NCBI RefSeq assembly: GCF_019966595.1
Contig: NZ_JAINFJ010000008.1
Span: 1-64,000 of the forward strand
Source: Oricola indica
GTDB taxonomy: Bacteria > Pseudomonadota > Alphaproteobacteria > Rhizobiales > Rhizobiaceae
DNA length: 64,000 nucleotides
Reading direction: 5' to 3'
How positions within the stretch are numbered: the stretch's first letter is position 1; every line of letters starts with the position of its first letter. Made by a program: the position numbers and the translations under genes. The notes under the pieces are model-generated. The model did not search any database. It had not been told where the DNA came from and saw nothing but the letters and a program-made list of their open reading frames with translations. Of this stretch, positions 4,834-9,995 are shown in pieces.

Positions 4834-4909
<76 letters not shown>

Positions 4910-5091: not shown

Positions 5092-5168
5092 GCGGGTGTA
5101 GCTCAGTTGGTTAGAGTGCCGGCCTGTCACGCCGGAGGTCGCGGGTTCGAGCCCCGTCACTCGCGCCA
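5092..5168 (+). tRNA. tRNA-Asp (anticodon GTC)
   Basis: The cloverleaf has acceptor GCGGGTG with CACTCGC, anticodon stem CCGGC/GCCGG around CTGTCAC (anticodon GTC), T loop TTCGAGC, discriminator G and encoded CCA. The gene is divergent from tRNA-Val, with about 180 bases between them and no gene in that gap. Confidence 0.97.
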
Positions 5169-6485: not shown

Positions 6486-7094
6486 ATGGCCACGACCGAA
6501 ACGCTCAATGACCTTGCCGGTACGCTCGCGGATGCGCTGGAGGGGATCGACTACGAGACGAGCATCGCCTTTGGCGAACTGACGATCACGACCGGAATCG
6601 GCAGCCTGATCGAGCTGCTGACCGCGCTGCGCGACGATGTGCAGCTGAAATTCGTCTCGTTCATCGATGTCACCGCCGTCGATTATCCGGGCCGCGAACG
6701 CCGGTTCGACGTCGTCTATCACCTGATGTCGCCGACGCTGAACCAGCGGCTGCGCGTCAAGCTGGAGACCGACGAGGACACGGCCGTTCCCAGCGCCGTT
6801 GGCGTCTATCCCGGCGCGAACTGGTTCGAGCGCGAGACCTACGACATGTATGGGGTGCTGTTTTCCGGCCATCCGGATCTGCGCCGCCTGCTGACCGATT
6901 ACGGTTTCGAAGGCCATCCGCTGCGCAAGGACTTCCCGCTGTCAGGCTTCGTGCAGGTGCGCTACGACGACGAGCAGAAGCGCGTCGTCTACGAGCCGGT
7001 GAAGCTGCGCCAGGAATTCCGCGATTTCGATTTCCTCTCGCCATGGGAAGGCACGGACTATGTGCTGCCGGGCGATGAAAAGAAAAGTGTATAG
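6486..7094 (+). CDS. nuoC: NADH-quinone oxidoreductase subunit C (30 kDa)
   Basis: This 202-residue peripheral-arm subunit shows the 30-kDa signature in [16 protein letters not shown], followed by [22 protein letters not shown]. The protein is a separate NuoC, not the NuoCD fusion of Escherichia coli. Its last codons and TAG stop lie at the very edge of a heptamer array: the stop TAG at 7092-7094 is the first three bases of the first repeat unit, so the natural C-terminus may have been altered slightly (it ends GDEKKSV). Confidence 0.97.
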
Positions 7095-7126
7095 CGAATA
7101 GGGAGTAGTGAATAGCGAGTAGGGAA
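7092..7126 (+). repeat. Left heptamer array, five TAGNGAR units
   Basis: Units are TAGCGAA, TAGGGAG, TAGTGAA, TAGCGAG and TAGGGAA in perfect seven-base register. Because 7 is not a multiple of 3, the TAG of successive units falls in all three frames, so no ribosome can read through. The first TAG is the nuoC stop codon. Confidence 0.9.
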
Positions 7127-7178
7127 GCCGATTTCGGACATAACGTCATACCGCGACCTTCGGATCTGGCAGCTGGCC

Positions 7179-7505
7179 ATGGATTTGTCGGTTGATGTTT
7201 ACCGGGAGACGGTTGGCTTTCCCAAAAGCGAGACCTACGGAATGACGAGCCAAATTCGACGGGCCTCGACTTCCATTGCGGCCAATATCGCCGAAGGGCA
7301 TGGTCGGGAGAATACCGGGGCTTTCGTGCAGTTCCTGAGAATTGCACAAGGCTCCTTGAAAGAACTGGAAACCCATTTGATCCTCGCCGGACGGCTTGGA
7401 TATCTGGATGAAAAAATCGCGGGCGGGTTGCTCGCCAGAACGGATGAATTGGGCAGGATGATCAGATCGATGATCAGACGACTGCAGGAAAAGATGGCAG
7501 AATGA
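7179..7505 (+). CDS. Four-helix-bundle protein, 23S rRNA intervening-sequence (S23/bAvd-like) family
   Basis: From the ATG the protein has 108 residues, but the same frame is open from 7116, and the codons before the ATG spell the conserved family opening SYRDLRIWQLA, so the true N-terminus is upstream. No ATG, GTG or TTG exists there: only ATT at 7131 (AGGGAA four bases before it), ATA at 7140 and CTG at 7173. The family blocks [21 protein letters not shown] and [22 protein letters not shown] are clear. Relatives occur in 23S rRNA intervening sequences and as bAvd accessory proteins of diversity-generating retroelements; they form basic barrel-like pentamers thought to bind nucleic acid. No reverse transcriptase or rRNA is nearby. 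Codon use is visibly more AT-rich than in the nuo genes. Its role in the nuo operon is unknown. Confidence 0.88.
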
Positions 7506-7510
7506 ACGGC

Positions 7511-7545
7511 ACGATTATTCGCTATTCGCTACTCGCTATTCGCTT
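7511..7545 (-). repeat. Right heptamer array, inverted
   Basis: Read on the minus strand from 7545, the units are AAGCGAA, TAGCGAG, TAGCGAA, TAGCGAA and a degenerate TAATCGT. Units one to four match left-array units one to four in order, and two of the four differences would be G-U pairs in RNA. The transcript could therefore fold into a stem of about 28 base pairs that loops out the gene. It ends seven bases before the nuoD ribosome-binding site. Confidence 0.88.
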
Positions 7546-7563
7546 GACCGCCGGAGGTGTGTC

Positions 7564-8754
7564 ATGACCGAGCATAACGTCCGCAATTTCACCATCAATT
7601 TCGGGCCGCAGCATCCGGCCGCACACGGCGTTTTGCGCCTTGTGCTGGAGCTGGACGGCGAGGTCTGCGAGCGTGTCGATCCGCATATCGGTCTGCTGCA
7701 TCGCGGCACCGAGAAGCTGATGGAGCACAAGACCTATCTGCAGGCCGTGCCTTATCTCGACCGGCTCGACTATGTTGCGCCGATGAACCAGGAGCACGCC
7801 TTTGCGCTGGCCGTCGAGCGGATGCTGGAGATCGAGGTGCCGAAGCGCGGCCAGGTAATCCGCGTCCTGTTCTCGGAGATCGGCCGCATTCTCTCGCACC
7901 TCCTGAACATCACGACTCAGGCACTCGATGTCGGGGCGCTGACGCCGCCGCTGTGGGGCTTCGAGGAGCGCGAGAAGCTGATGGTGTTCTACGAGCGGGC
8001 CTGCGGCGCGCGCATGCACGCGGCCTATTTCCGGCCCGGCGGCGTCCACCAGGACATTCCGCAGAAGCTGGTCGAAGACATCGGCAACTGGATCGATCCG
8101 TTCCTCAAGGTCGTCGACGATCTCGACGGGCTGCTGACCGCCAACCGCATCTTCAAGCAGCGCAACGTCGATATCGGCGTCGTCAAGCTGGAAGACGCCT
8201 GGGCCTGGGGTTTCTCGGGCGTCATGGTGCGCGGCTCGGGCGCGAAATGGGACCTGCGCAAAGCGCAGCCTTACGAGTGCTACGACGAGATGGATTTCAA
8301 GATTCCCGTCGGCAAGAACGGCGACTGCTTCGACCGCTACCTGATCCGCATGGAAGAGATGCGCCAGGCCGCTCACATTATGCGCCAGTGCGTCGATCGC
8401 CTGCTCGGTTCCGAGGCGACCGGGCCTGTCTCGAATGTCGACGGCAAGATCGTTCCGCCGAAGCGCGGCGAGATGAAGCGCTCCATGGAAGCGCTGATCC
8501 ATCACTTCAAGCTTTACACCGAGGGCTATCACGTGCCGGCGGGCGAGGTTTATGCAGCCGTCGAGGCGCCCAAGGGCGAGTTCGGCGTCTACCTGGTCGC
8601 CGACGGCTCCAACAAGCCCTACAAGGTGAAGCTGCGCGCGCCCGGTTTCGCGCATCTTCAGGCAATGGATTTCCTTTGCCGCGGCCACATGCTGGCCGAC
8701 GTCTCCGCCGTACTCGGCTCCCTCGATATCGTGTTTGGTGAGGTGGACCGCTAA
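7564..8754 (+). CDS. nuoD: NADH-quinone oxidoreductase subunit D (49 kDa)
   Basis: This 396-residue subunit forms the quinone-binding cavity together with NuoB. The 49-kDa signature is seen in [22 protein letters not shown]; the [10 protein letters not shown] loop near residue 15 carries the quinone-contacting His, and the C-terminus ends in the family's [14 protein letters not shown] strong GGAGGT lies six bases before the ATG, so translation can restart independently after the cassette that separates it from nuoC. The stop overlaps the nuoE start by one base. Confidence 0.97.
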
Positions 8755-9995
8755 TGTCTGTTCGTCGTCTCGCAGAAGGAAACGTCCAGCCGGCGGATTT
8801 CGCGTTCAGCGCGGAGATGACCGCCGAGGTGGACAAGTGGGTCGCGAAGTACCCCGAAGGCCGGCAGCAATCGGCCGTGATTCCGCTGCTCATGCTCGCG
8901 CAGGAGCAGGAGGGCTGGGTCACCAAGGCTGCCATCGAGCATATCGCCGAAACGCTGGAAATGCCGCGCATTCGTGTTCTGGAAGTCGCCACTTTCTATA
9001 CGCAGTTCATGCTGCAGCCCGTCGGCACCAAGGCGCATGTGCAGGTTTGCGGCACCACGCCCTGCATGCTGCGTGGCGCGGAGGACCTGAAGAAGGTCTG
9101 CCAGAACCGCATCCATCACGACCAGTTCGCGCTCAGCGACGGCGGCAAGCTGTCGTGGGAGGAAGTCGAGTGCCAGGGCGCCTGCGTCAACGCGCCGATG
9201 GTGATGATCGGCAAGGACACCTACGAGGACCTGACGCCGGAGCGGCTCGAAGAGATCATCGACGCGTTCGAGGCCGGCAAGGGCGACACGATCACGCCCG
9301 GTCCGCAGATCGACCGCATCTATTCGGCGCCTGTCGGCGGTCCGGTCACGCTGCTCGACGATGAATCGAGGAAGGCGGCCTCGGCACCGCGCGGCAACGG
9401 CAACGGGCCGCAGGAGATGACCAAGGCGGCCAAGCCCGAGACCGCGGCTCCGGAAGGCGACGACACGCTCGCCGATCCCGACGAGGCCGAGGGCCCCGGC
9501 CGCACCAAGGCTTCCAAGGCCGAAGTCGATGCCAAGACCGAGGAGTCGGGGCCGACGATGAAGGTCGCGAGCACGGCGAGCGGCGTGAAACCGAAGAAGA
9601 AGCCTGTCGAGAAATCCGTAGGCAACGGCAATGCGACCATGAATCTCGCGTCGACGGCGTCCGGCCGGGCGAAACCGGGCGAAAAGCCGGCTGAGGCGGC
9701 TGGCGAGACGTCACTCGATGACAAGAACCGGCCGGCGGCGATCGACAAGCCCGCCAATCCTGACGACCTGAAGCTGATTTCCGGCGTCGGGCCGAAGATC
9801 GAGAATACGCTCAACTCGCTCGGCATCTACACCTTCGAGCAGGTCGCTGGCTGGAAAAAGGCCGAGCGCGAATGGGTCGACGGCTATCTGAAATTCAAGG
9901 GCCGAATCGACCGGGACGACTGGGTGAAGCAGGCCAAGGCGCTCTCCAAGGGCGTCGATGAATATGTCCGCGTTTTCGGCAAGAAGCCGCGGTAA
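8754..9995 (+). CDS. nuoE: NADH-quinone oxidoreductase subunit E with C-terminal helix-hairpin-helix extension
   Basis: Residues 1-175 are the thioredoxin-like [2Fe-2S] (N1a) domain, with the cluster cysteines in CGTTPCMLRG and CQGACVNAPM. A long, low-complexity linker rich in Lys, Ala, Glu and Pro (about 195-330) leads to a C-terminal domain at about 335-413 beginning NPDDLKLISGVGPKIENTLNSLG, a helix-hairpin-helix-like unit. At 413 residues the protein is more than twice the length of a minimal NuoE; the extension is typical of rhizobial relatives. The same domain recurs at the end of the protein at 11407. Confidence 0.96.
   Translation: MSVRRLAEGNVQPADFAFSAEMTAEVDKWVAKYPEGRQQSAVIPLLMLAQEQEGWVTKAAIEHIAETLEMPRIRVLEVATFYTQFMLQPVGTKAHVQVCGTTPCMLRGAEDLKKVCQNRIHHDQFALSDGGKLSWEEVECQGACVNAPMVMIGKDTYEDLTPERLEEIIDAFEAGKGDTITPGPQIDRIYSAPVGGPVTLLDDESRKAASAPRGNGNGPQEMTKAAKPETAAPEGDDTLADPDEAEGPGRTKASKAEVDAKTEESGPTMKVASTASGVKPKKKPVEKSVGNGNATMNLASTASGRAKPGEKPAEAAGETSLDDKNRPAAIDKPANPDDLKLISGVGPKIENTLNSLGIYTFEQVAGWKKAEREWVDGYLKFKGRIDRDDWVKQAKALSKGVDEYVRVFGKKPR

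Follow-up and report, generated by a model that had tools for sequence, protein, structure and literature searches.

Intervening sequences (IVSs) of 23S rRNA are already known, and so are S23 genes that lie outside rRNA. The cyanobacterial STRRs are intergenic heptamer repeats, and REPINs are short dispersed hairpins, non-autonomous relative to RAYT genes, the RAYT gene being flanked by the same hairpin sequence. For the rRNA IVS of Coxiella burnetii, the sections of PMC4990558 devoted to it describe a 28-bp stem cut by RNase III and heptameric repeats that adjoin the S23 start; the S23 protein is apparently not made and the ORF is reported as decaying. In 2016, the same sections described rRNA intervening sequences as unclear in both function and origin, and S23 proteins as having no known function (PMC4990558). 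In the portion of PMC10053308 that treats them, the Avd/bAvd proteins of diversity-generating retroelements are a four-helix-bundle family related to S23. Heptamers also appear in the repeat descriptions of PMC4679880, as intergenic TAACTGA arrays of Beggiatoaceae that are direct with one inverted case, and in the supplement legends of PMC2700814, as heptanucleotide 'regulator sites' of Geobacter metallireducens, one class of which is drawn over two strands with a loop.

The S23 insert between nuoC and nuoD

The DNA analysed here, which we call the window, is a stretch of 64,000 nucleotides from Oricola indica. In it, nuoC and nuoD are separated by a gene of the S23/IVP family, which is enclosed by inverted arms of heptamers, as follows.

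6486..7094, plus strand: nuoC (Pfam Complex1_30kDa, 156.6 bits)
7092..7121, plus strand: left arm, purine-rich heptamers TAGCGAA TAGGGAG TAGTGAA TAGCGAG (+TA) (sequence, shuffle test)
7122..7130, plus strand: GGGAAGCCG, possible ribosome binding site of the S23 gene, proposed from its sequence
7131..7505, plus strand: S23/IVP four-helix-bundle gene, start uncertain, stop TGA at 7503-7505 (PF05635, TIGR02436)
7516..7545, plus strand: right arm, inverted array TATTCGC TATTCGC TACTCGC TATTCGC T (sequence; base-paired to the left arm in the RNA fold prediction)
7550..7558, plus strand: GCCGGAGGT, likely ribosome binding site of nuoD by its sequence, between the right arm and the ATG
7564..8754, plus strand: nuoD, downstream flanking gene (NuoD TIGR01962, 573.6 bits)

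The inverted heptamer arms around this S23 gene are beyond chance: their alignment score of 23 was reached in 0/1000 dinucleotide shuffles of the flanks (maximum 18). The nuoC stop codon TAG (7092-7094) provides the first three bases of the left arm, and the best pairing joins 7093-7121 with 7516-7544, which makes 29 nt that are 90% complementary. In the predicted RNA fold of 7080-7563 the arms are paired with each other (29 pairs with one mismatch, z -5.26). A preliminary description of the window had placed inverted 28-base arms at 7092-7119 and 7518-7545 with 24/28 identity, and direct reading confirmed this. It had also described them as four TAGNGAR heptamers in the same order; this is right for the left arm, but the order is inexact in the right arm, whose minus strand reads (A)AGCGAA, TAGCGAG, TAGCGAA, TAGCGAA. 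Three tandem GNSARTV heptamers were found in the window's genome only at the two arms, and the reversed-pattern control gave 0 matches. Rfam matches nothing in the window but two tRNAs, and the insert is flanked by nuoC and nuoD, so that it does not lie within an rRNA gene.

Some neighbouring features were also recorded. Upstream of the nuo operon there are tRNA genes at 4837-4909 (minus strand) and 5092-5165 (plus strand). Between the right arm and nuoD (7546-7563), here and in relatives, the likely nuoD ribosome binding site often sits within a tiny palindrome, the stem of which varies between copies (AGCGCggaGCGCT, GGACCggaGGTCC, GGAGCtccGCTCC; by eye). The ORF in the nuoE position (window 8754-9995, named by position) encodes 413 aa with a long A/K/E/P-rich extension.

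The protein encoded between the arms matches PF05635 with 129 bits (cut-off 33.8) and TIGR02436 with 126.5 bits, which upholds the earlier assignment of an S23/IVP-family gene as the sole gene between the arms. Among sense ORFs of at least 60 aa it stands alone there, and the element encodes no transposase. Its Pfam matches are 23S_rRNA_IVP and a bAvd match below cut-off (20.6 against 40 bits) only, with no TnpA_REP-type protein, and no catalytic family match was found in Pfam or NCBIfam. Relatives with a solved structure, by sequence, are 2gsc and 2rld, and the genome of the window has a single S23 match. In the S23 reading frame there is no ATG, GTG or TTG ahead of the conserved SYRDL start, and the first ATG is at 7179; ATT at 7131, behind AGGGAAG, is a possible non-AUG start, and so is ATA at 7140.

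Inverted heptamer arms at other S23 loci

The survey comprised 212 S23 loci encoding 185 distinct proteins, 182 of them flanked on either side by 120 nt or more; a locus was called armed when its inverted arm score was at least 18. By this threshold, inverted arms were present at 130/182 distinct loci and 52/182 fell below it, while in controls on the same flanks arms that were reversed but not complemented reached it at 1/182 and direct arms at 11/182. The sample leans to the window's order: 61 loci came from the relatives and the order (43 armed), 50 from a Pfam search of the phylum (27 armed) and 71 from a scan with an order-derived profile (60 armed). Outside Pseudomonadota, as judged by record title, 11/16 loci were armed. 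The best period was 7 in 117 of the 130 armed loci and 8 in 11, and in all 130 the left arm was more than 50% purine. The units differ from place to place; in Hyphomicrobiales they include GCGAATA, GGCAGTA, GGCAGTC, GTGAGTA, GTGAATG and GGGGAGTA (8), and elsewhere AGGATTC (Chitinophaga MAG, L257), AGGTGTC (Chloroploca, L212), GGGAGTG (Nostoc, L229) and AGGGATC (Nitrospirae MAG, L259). TAGNGAR, proposed earlier as the arm unit, is thus correct in the window and too narrow beyond it, being one among many unit sequences. At the level of sequence, what armed loci have in common is a period of 7 (or 8), inversion and left-right matching, while the unit itself varies.

A standard start codon precedes the conserved S23 start in 113/130 armed loci and is absent in 17/130, the window's included. 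In 60 pairs of close relatives, which leave out the window's own S23 as too diverged from the rest, dN/dS of armed S23 genes had a median of 0.08 (range 0.03-0.20); as these sequence comparisons indicate, armed S23 genes in close pairs evolve under purifying selection. A search of phage records gave no S23 match, and S23 was found on 37/72,556 plasmid records, cyanobacteria foremost. On two plasmids of Calothrix brevissima NIES-22 (L332, L333), S23 is part of one and the same module and lies downstream of a gene of the phage integrase family.

Two identical S23 copies of one genome (G621; L172/L173) lie inside 23S rRNA genes, on the same strand as the rRNA, with RF02541 extending across both loci. 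Their arms are period-7 inverted arrays of AGGAATC/AGGGATC-like units, and the ATG directly follows the left arm. These were the only 23S rRNA copies among 33 distinct loci screened with Rfam, and 20 mostly weakly armed or unarmed S23 loci gave no Rfam match. In the 23S loci of G000, G033 and G046, a search for paired heptamer arrays found none; there was one lone two-unit match, in L382. As G621 carries such arms within its 23S rRNA genes, the nuo insert appears to be built like an rRNA IVS in an mRNA.

By their flanks, 56/130 armed copies were assigned to nuo. Other recurrent sites, named from Pfam matches of one representative each, lie between genes for glutamine synthetase and an FAD oxidoreductase (9 armed copies), acyl-CoA dehydrogenase and a 3-hydroxyisobutyrate-dehydrogenase-like protein (8), CP_ATPgrasp and Alpha-E (6), and GDP-mannose dehydratase and an epimerase (5). 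The preliminary description had called a protein operon an unusual home for such a gene, which is doubtful: in this sample, seeded from the window's order, operon and intergenic sites are common, and nuoC-nuoD is the commonest. Flank directions were called with a simple GC-frame ORF picker, which gave both flanks co-directional (++) at 51/56 nuo sites and misfiled L249. With it, 101 of the 130 armed copies had both flanking genes co-directional with S23 and 4 had both opposite; when copies were collapsed into 46 site groups, 23 were ++ and 4 were -- (p 3e-4), and the upstream gene was co-directional in 35 of the 43 groups with a call (p 4e-5). By tblastn, all 66 distinct nuo-linked S23 genes (66/66) are on the nuo strand, 65 of them between nuoC and nuoD and one (L149) upstream of nuoC. 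Away from nuo the sense rule does not always hold, since the Nostoc edaphicum plasmid pNe_5 has an S23 gene in antisense orientation between genes for ribonucleotide reductase.

Left and right arms are matched element by element. Across 59 nuo-sited elements the own-pair scores summed to 1370, whereas none of 5000 random left-right matchings exceeded 1017, and the own-pair score exceeded the median of mispaired arms in 57/59, being in the top 5% in 22/59 only. In 48 in-register nuo elements, 86.7% of cells were Watson-Crick in own pairs versus 67.4% in mispaired ones; heptamer positions 1, 4 and 6 are almost fixed as G, A and T, and position 3 varies between C and G, jointly in the two arms, with 3-4 mismatches per 48 copies in each unit. 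Because many copies share units, own-arm matching is not unique: in only 20/60 sampled elements did none of 60 other right arms score better than the element's own, and flanks mispaired between loci also scored at least 18 in 61/546 cases. Arm mismatches comprised 129 G-U and 166 A-C (p 0.036, in the direction opposite to a G-U bias), which speaks against strong selection on an RNA stem. The pattern looks as if pairing were kept at the DNA level, by conversion and slippage; with the G-U test negative, we do not claim selection of the stem as RNA alone.

History of the junction and arm pairs without S23

The nuoC-nuoD junction was readable in 58 of 61 genomes, namely the window's own and 60 relatives. 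It held S23 in 9, arms without S23 in 1 (G036, where heptamer arms occupy a 178-nt gap in L024) and neither in 48. In the window's genus, two junctions are filled with S23 (the second one in G005) and four are empty, with nuoC and nuoD overlapping; S23-filled junctions occur in several families of the order. The four empty congeners bear out the earlier reading of an arm-bounded insertion into a conserved operon. Aligned across relatives, the gene and its arms are not found in all of them and empty sites are seen, and a search for other arm pairs found them elsewhere both with and without an S23 gene.

Since NuoC and NuoD of the two filled congeners are 92.3% identical whereas their S23 proteins are 58% identical, the junction has probably been filled by an S23 element more than once. 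A tree of 53 nuo-sited S23 copies has 10 well-supported splits, of which 8 disagree with splits that are well supported for Nuo. Rapid evolution of S23 could contribute to this discordance; some pairs, with a Nuo identity of 80-85% yet an S23 identity of up to 87%, point to transfer. The nuo insert thus has a sporadic and, to judge from 9/58 junctions and the tree conflict, horizontally acquired distribution. S23 proteins group by site, as seen for 70/94 nearest neighbours, so that much of the spread could be due to homologous recombination that transfers the locus. With regard to a target-site duplication, empty sites have an ATGA overlap, and filled ones have a stop and a start on either side of the element, the right flank differing too. 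No recent jump of S23 to a new site was caught among the loci compared. Two candidates for such a jump were set aside: L249 and L046 have both flanks in common and are therefore the same site, and L151 and L260 have the downstream flank in common, the contig of L260 breaking off close to the left arm. Inserts of about 420-470 nt other than S23 occupy nuoC-nuoD in 11/58 genomes; in one of them (G023, L021:1073-1504) a 143-aa ORF with cysteine motifs, GFA-like by eye, fills the junction.

Heptamer arrays also occur away from S23. Three tandem GNSARTV heptamers gave 387 overlapping matches in 18/61 genomes, while the reversed control gave 16 in 7 genomes, 10 of them in G010; the pattern misses other units (0 matches in G005 and G021, both with an armed S23), so these counts are lower bounds. 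At least three array matches outside the S23 locus were present in 8/13 genomes with S23 versus 4/48 without (Fisher p 1.5e-4; the table was made by hand, and G030, with a weak match only, was counted as lacking S23). Three genomes without an S23 match hold 44 (G013), 15 (G035) and 14 (G055) GNSARTV matches, and so S23 is not needed for the arrays to persist there. Very long GGCAGTC-type arrays, of 29 and 12 units, were seen at L297 (G046 C6 539000-541700), in a genome with a single S23 match.

Among the fetched loci there were 38 S23-less left-right pairs (one place, L294, counted twice) with loops of 9-91 nt; by the same ORF picker, 26 lie between tandem, 10 between convergent and 2 between divergent genes. 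Pairs of this kind lie at what we take, by eye, to be atpD-atpC in two genera (L293, L315) and coxL-coxM in two genera (L268, L322). By the GNSARTV pattern, dispersed related copies are absent from the window's genome, and S23-less pairs are dispersed in G033, where three copies at unrelated places have loop sequence in common, in our view the best sign of dispersal that the sequences offer. At one pair site that is orthologous between G033 and its congener G783, the right arrays of the two genomes consist of different units, which indicates that arrays turn over fast. A comparison of these two congeners for exact insertion ends yielded neither a clean empty site nor a target duplication: at L320 both carry the element, and at L313 G783 has another cassette (L337:2062-2677), of two genes, which we take for a toxin-antitoxin pair of BrnT/BrnA look.

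Candidate explanations and comparison with known systems

The explanation that we favour, with good but far from complete confidence, is that the nuo feature is a small insertion element built like a 23S rRNA IVS, with arms that likely form an RNA stem cuttable by RNase III and with rare spread between junctions. The S23 gene would be read and translated from the host nuo operon transcript, in which the arms are predicted to fold into a stem of about 29 bp. By analogy with what is reported for rRNA IVSs, RNase III may cut this stem and separate the nuoC message from that of nuoD. The S23 pentamer may bind the heptamer hairpin, and such binding may aid the persistence or movement of the element. 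Rare horizontal transfer or re-insertion would bring copies to the same junctions anew, and repeat slippage together with conversion between arms would keep the arms matched.

A mobile element working at the DNA level would account for part of the same evidence. In that case the arms would serve either as terminal inverted repeats or as a single-strand hairpin, mobilised by S23, by an enzyme of the host or by a foreign one; the stem in the RNA would be incidental, and the miniatures would be non-autonomous copies. The dispersed miniature pairs with loops of 9-91 nt, three of them with common loop sequence in G033, the excess of outside arrays in genomes with S23 (8/13 vs 4/48, p 1.5e-4), the missing G-U bias and the array unit replaced between congeners at one orthologous site all agree with it. 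However, the S23 protein has no catalytic family match in Pfam or NCBIfam, no target-site duplication is defined, arrays are abundant in some genomes without S23, and the sense bias (23 sites ++ vs 4 --) is unexpected unless selection removes the rest; we regard this explanation as a serious possibility that stays somewhat under even odds. A vertically inherited, domesticated hairpin that regulates or stabilises the message between the nuo cistrons, with S23 as its regulator, would suit the single strand of all 66 nuo-linked genes, the low dN/dS among close armed pairs, the predicted stem (z -5.26) and the presence in several families of the order. It is nevertheless unlikely, in view of the 49/58 junctions without S23 (4/6 in the same genus), the conflict between S23 and Nuo trees and the same device at unrelated operons.

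The junction might instead simply tolerate extra genes, S23 being ordinary cargo and the heptamers a host repeat family unrelated to it, as the non-S23 inserts of about 420-470 nt in 11/58 genomes and the arrays without S23 would allow. This is hard to reconcile with arms that occur together with S23 at dozens of unrelated sites as well as within 23S rRNA and that are matched element by element, and we consider it quite improbable. The position of the gene between inverted repeats also recalls an invertible phase-variation switch, in which recombination between the arms flips the gene; with one orientation in 66/66 nuo-linked copies we rejected this, and give it hardly any credence.

Beyond the nuo operon, S23 elements and their S23-less miniatures could be a single unrecognised mobile class found over many phyla, marked by inverted, freely changing heptamers in matched arms. 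Within this class, S23 would act on the hairpin as a mobility or replication factor that is not itself catalytic, and 23S rRNA IVSs, and perhaps many unexplained intergenic heptamer repeats, would be members. We put this forward tentatively, leaning slightly against it. If true, rRNA IVSs would be members of a wider class of small elements and not rRNA curiosities; the common hallmark would connect inserts in rRNA with S23 genes in operons and with dispersed heptamer hairpins, and would open function to testing in ordinary soil and marine bacteria. A full-text literature search, covering few subscription journals and no bioRxiv preprints, found no paper linking non-rRNA S23 genes with inverted heptamer arrays, and a search of that scope likewise found none on S23-less miniatures of S23 elements. 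Matched inverted heptamer arrays, as a hallmark joint to operon-borne S23 genes and rRNA IVSs, therefore appear to be new.

Compared with REPINs and RAYT genes, the elements described here are alike in having short dispersed hairpins and a gene flanked by the same hairpin sequence, and unlike in that the S23 protein has no transposase match and the arms are heptamer arrays. The TAACTGA arrays of Beggiatoaceae and the Geobacter sites are similarly tandem 7-nt units in intergenic DNA; the repeat sections of PMC4679880 and the supplement legends of PMC2700814 do not connect them with S23 genes or rRNA IVSs. The S23 of the window also differs from the accessory bAvd of diversity-generating retroelements, by scoring below the cut-off of that profile.

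The nearest likeness is to the rRNA IVSs, a link that consists of one genome of our survey and the published Coxiella case in the sections of PMC4990558 on its IVS. As in the Coxiella IVS described there (PMC4990558), the S23 gene of the nuo insert occupies the loop between terminal inverted repeats of about 28 bp and has tandem heptamers beside its start; the nuo insert is also, like such IVSs, sporadic in distribution. Like a long rRNA IVS, as the G621 copies illustrate, the nuo insert is sense to its host transcript. Two differences stand out: the host RNA is an mRNA operon junction, and armed S23 genes are under purifying selection here, whereas the same sections report the Coxiella ORF as decaying (PMC4990558). 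Of the features that mark a 23S rRNA IVS, the nuo insert has the S23/IVP ORF and terminal inverted repeats with a predicted stem, and it also has heptamer arrays in its arms as in L172/L173, a mark that we propose here and that is not a published one. Because location in rRNA is a defining feature and this insert lies elsewhere, we do not class it as a 23S rRNA IVS but as a variant, which, as its sequence suggests, shares with S23-bearing rRNA IVSs all the features testable here except the host RNA.
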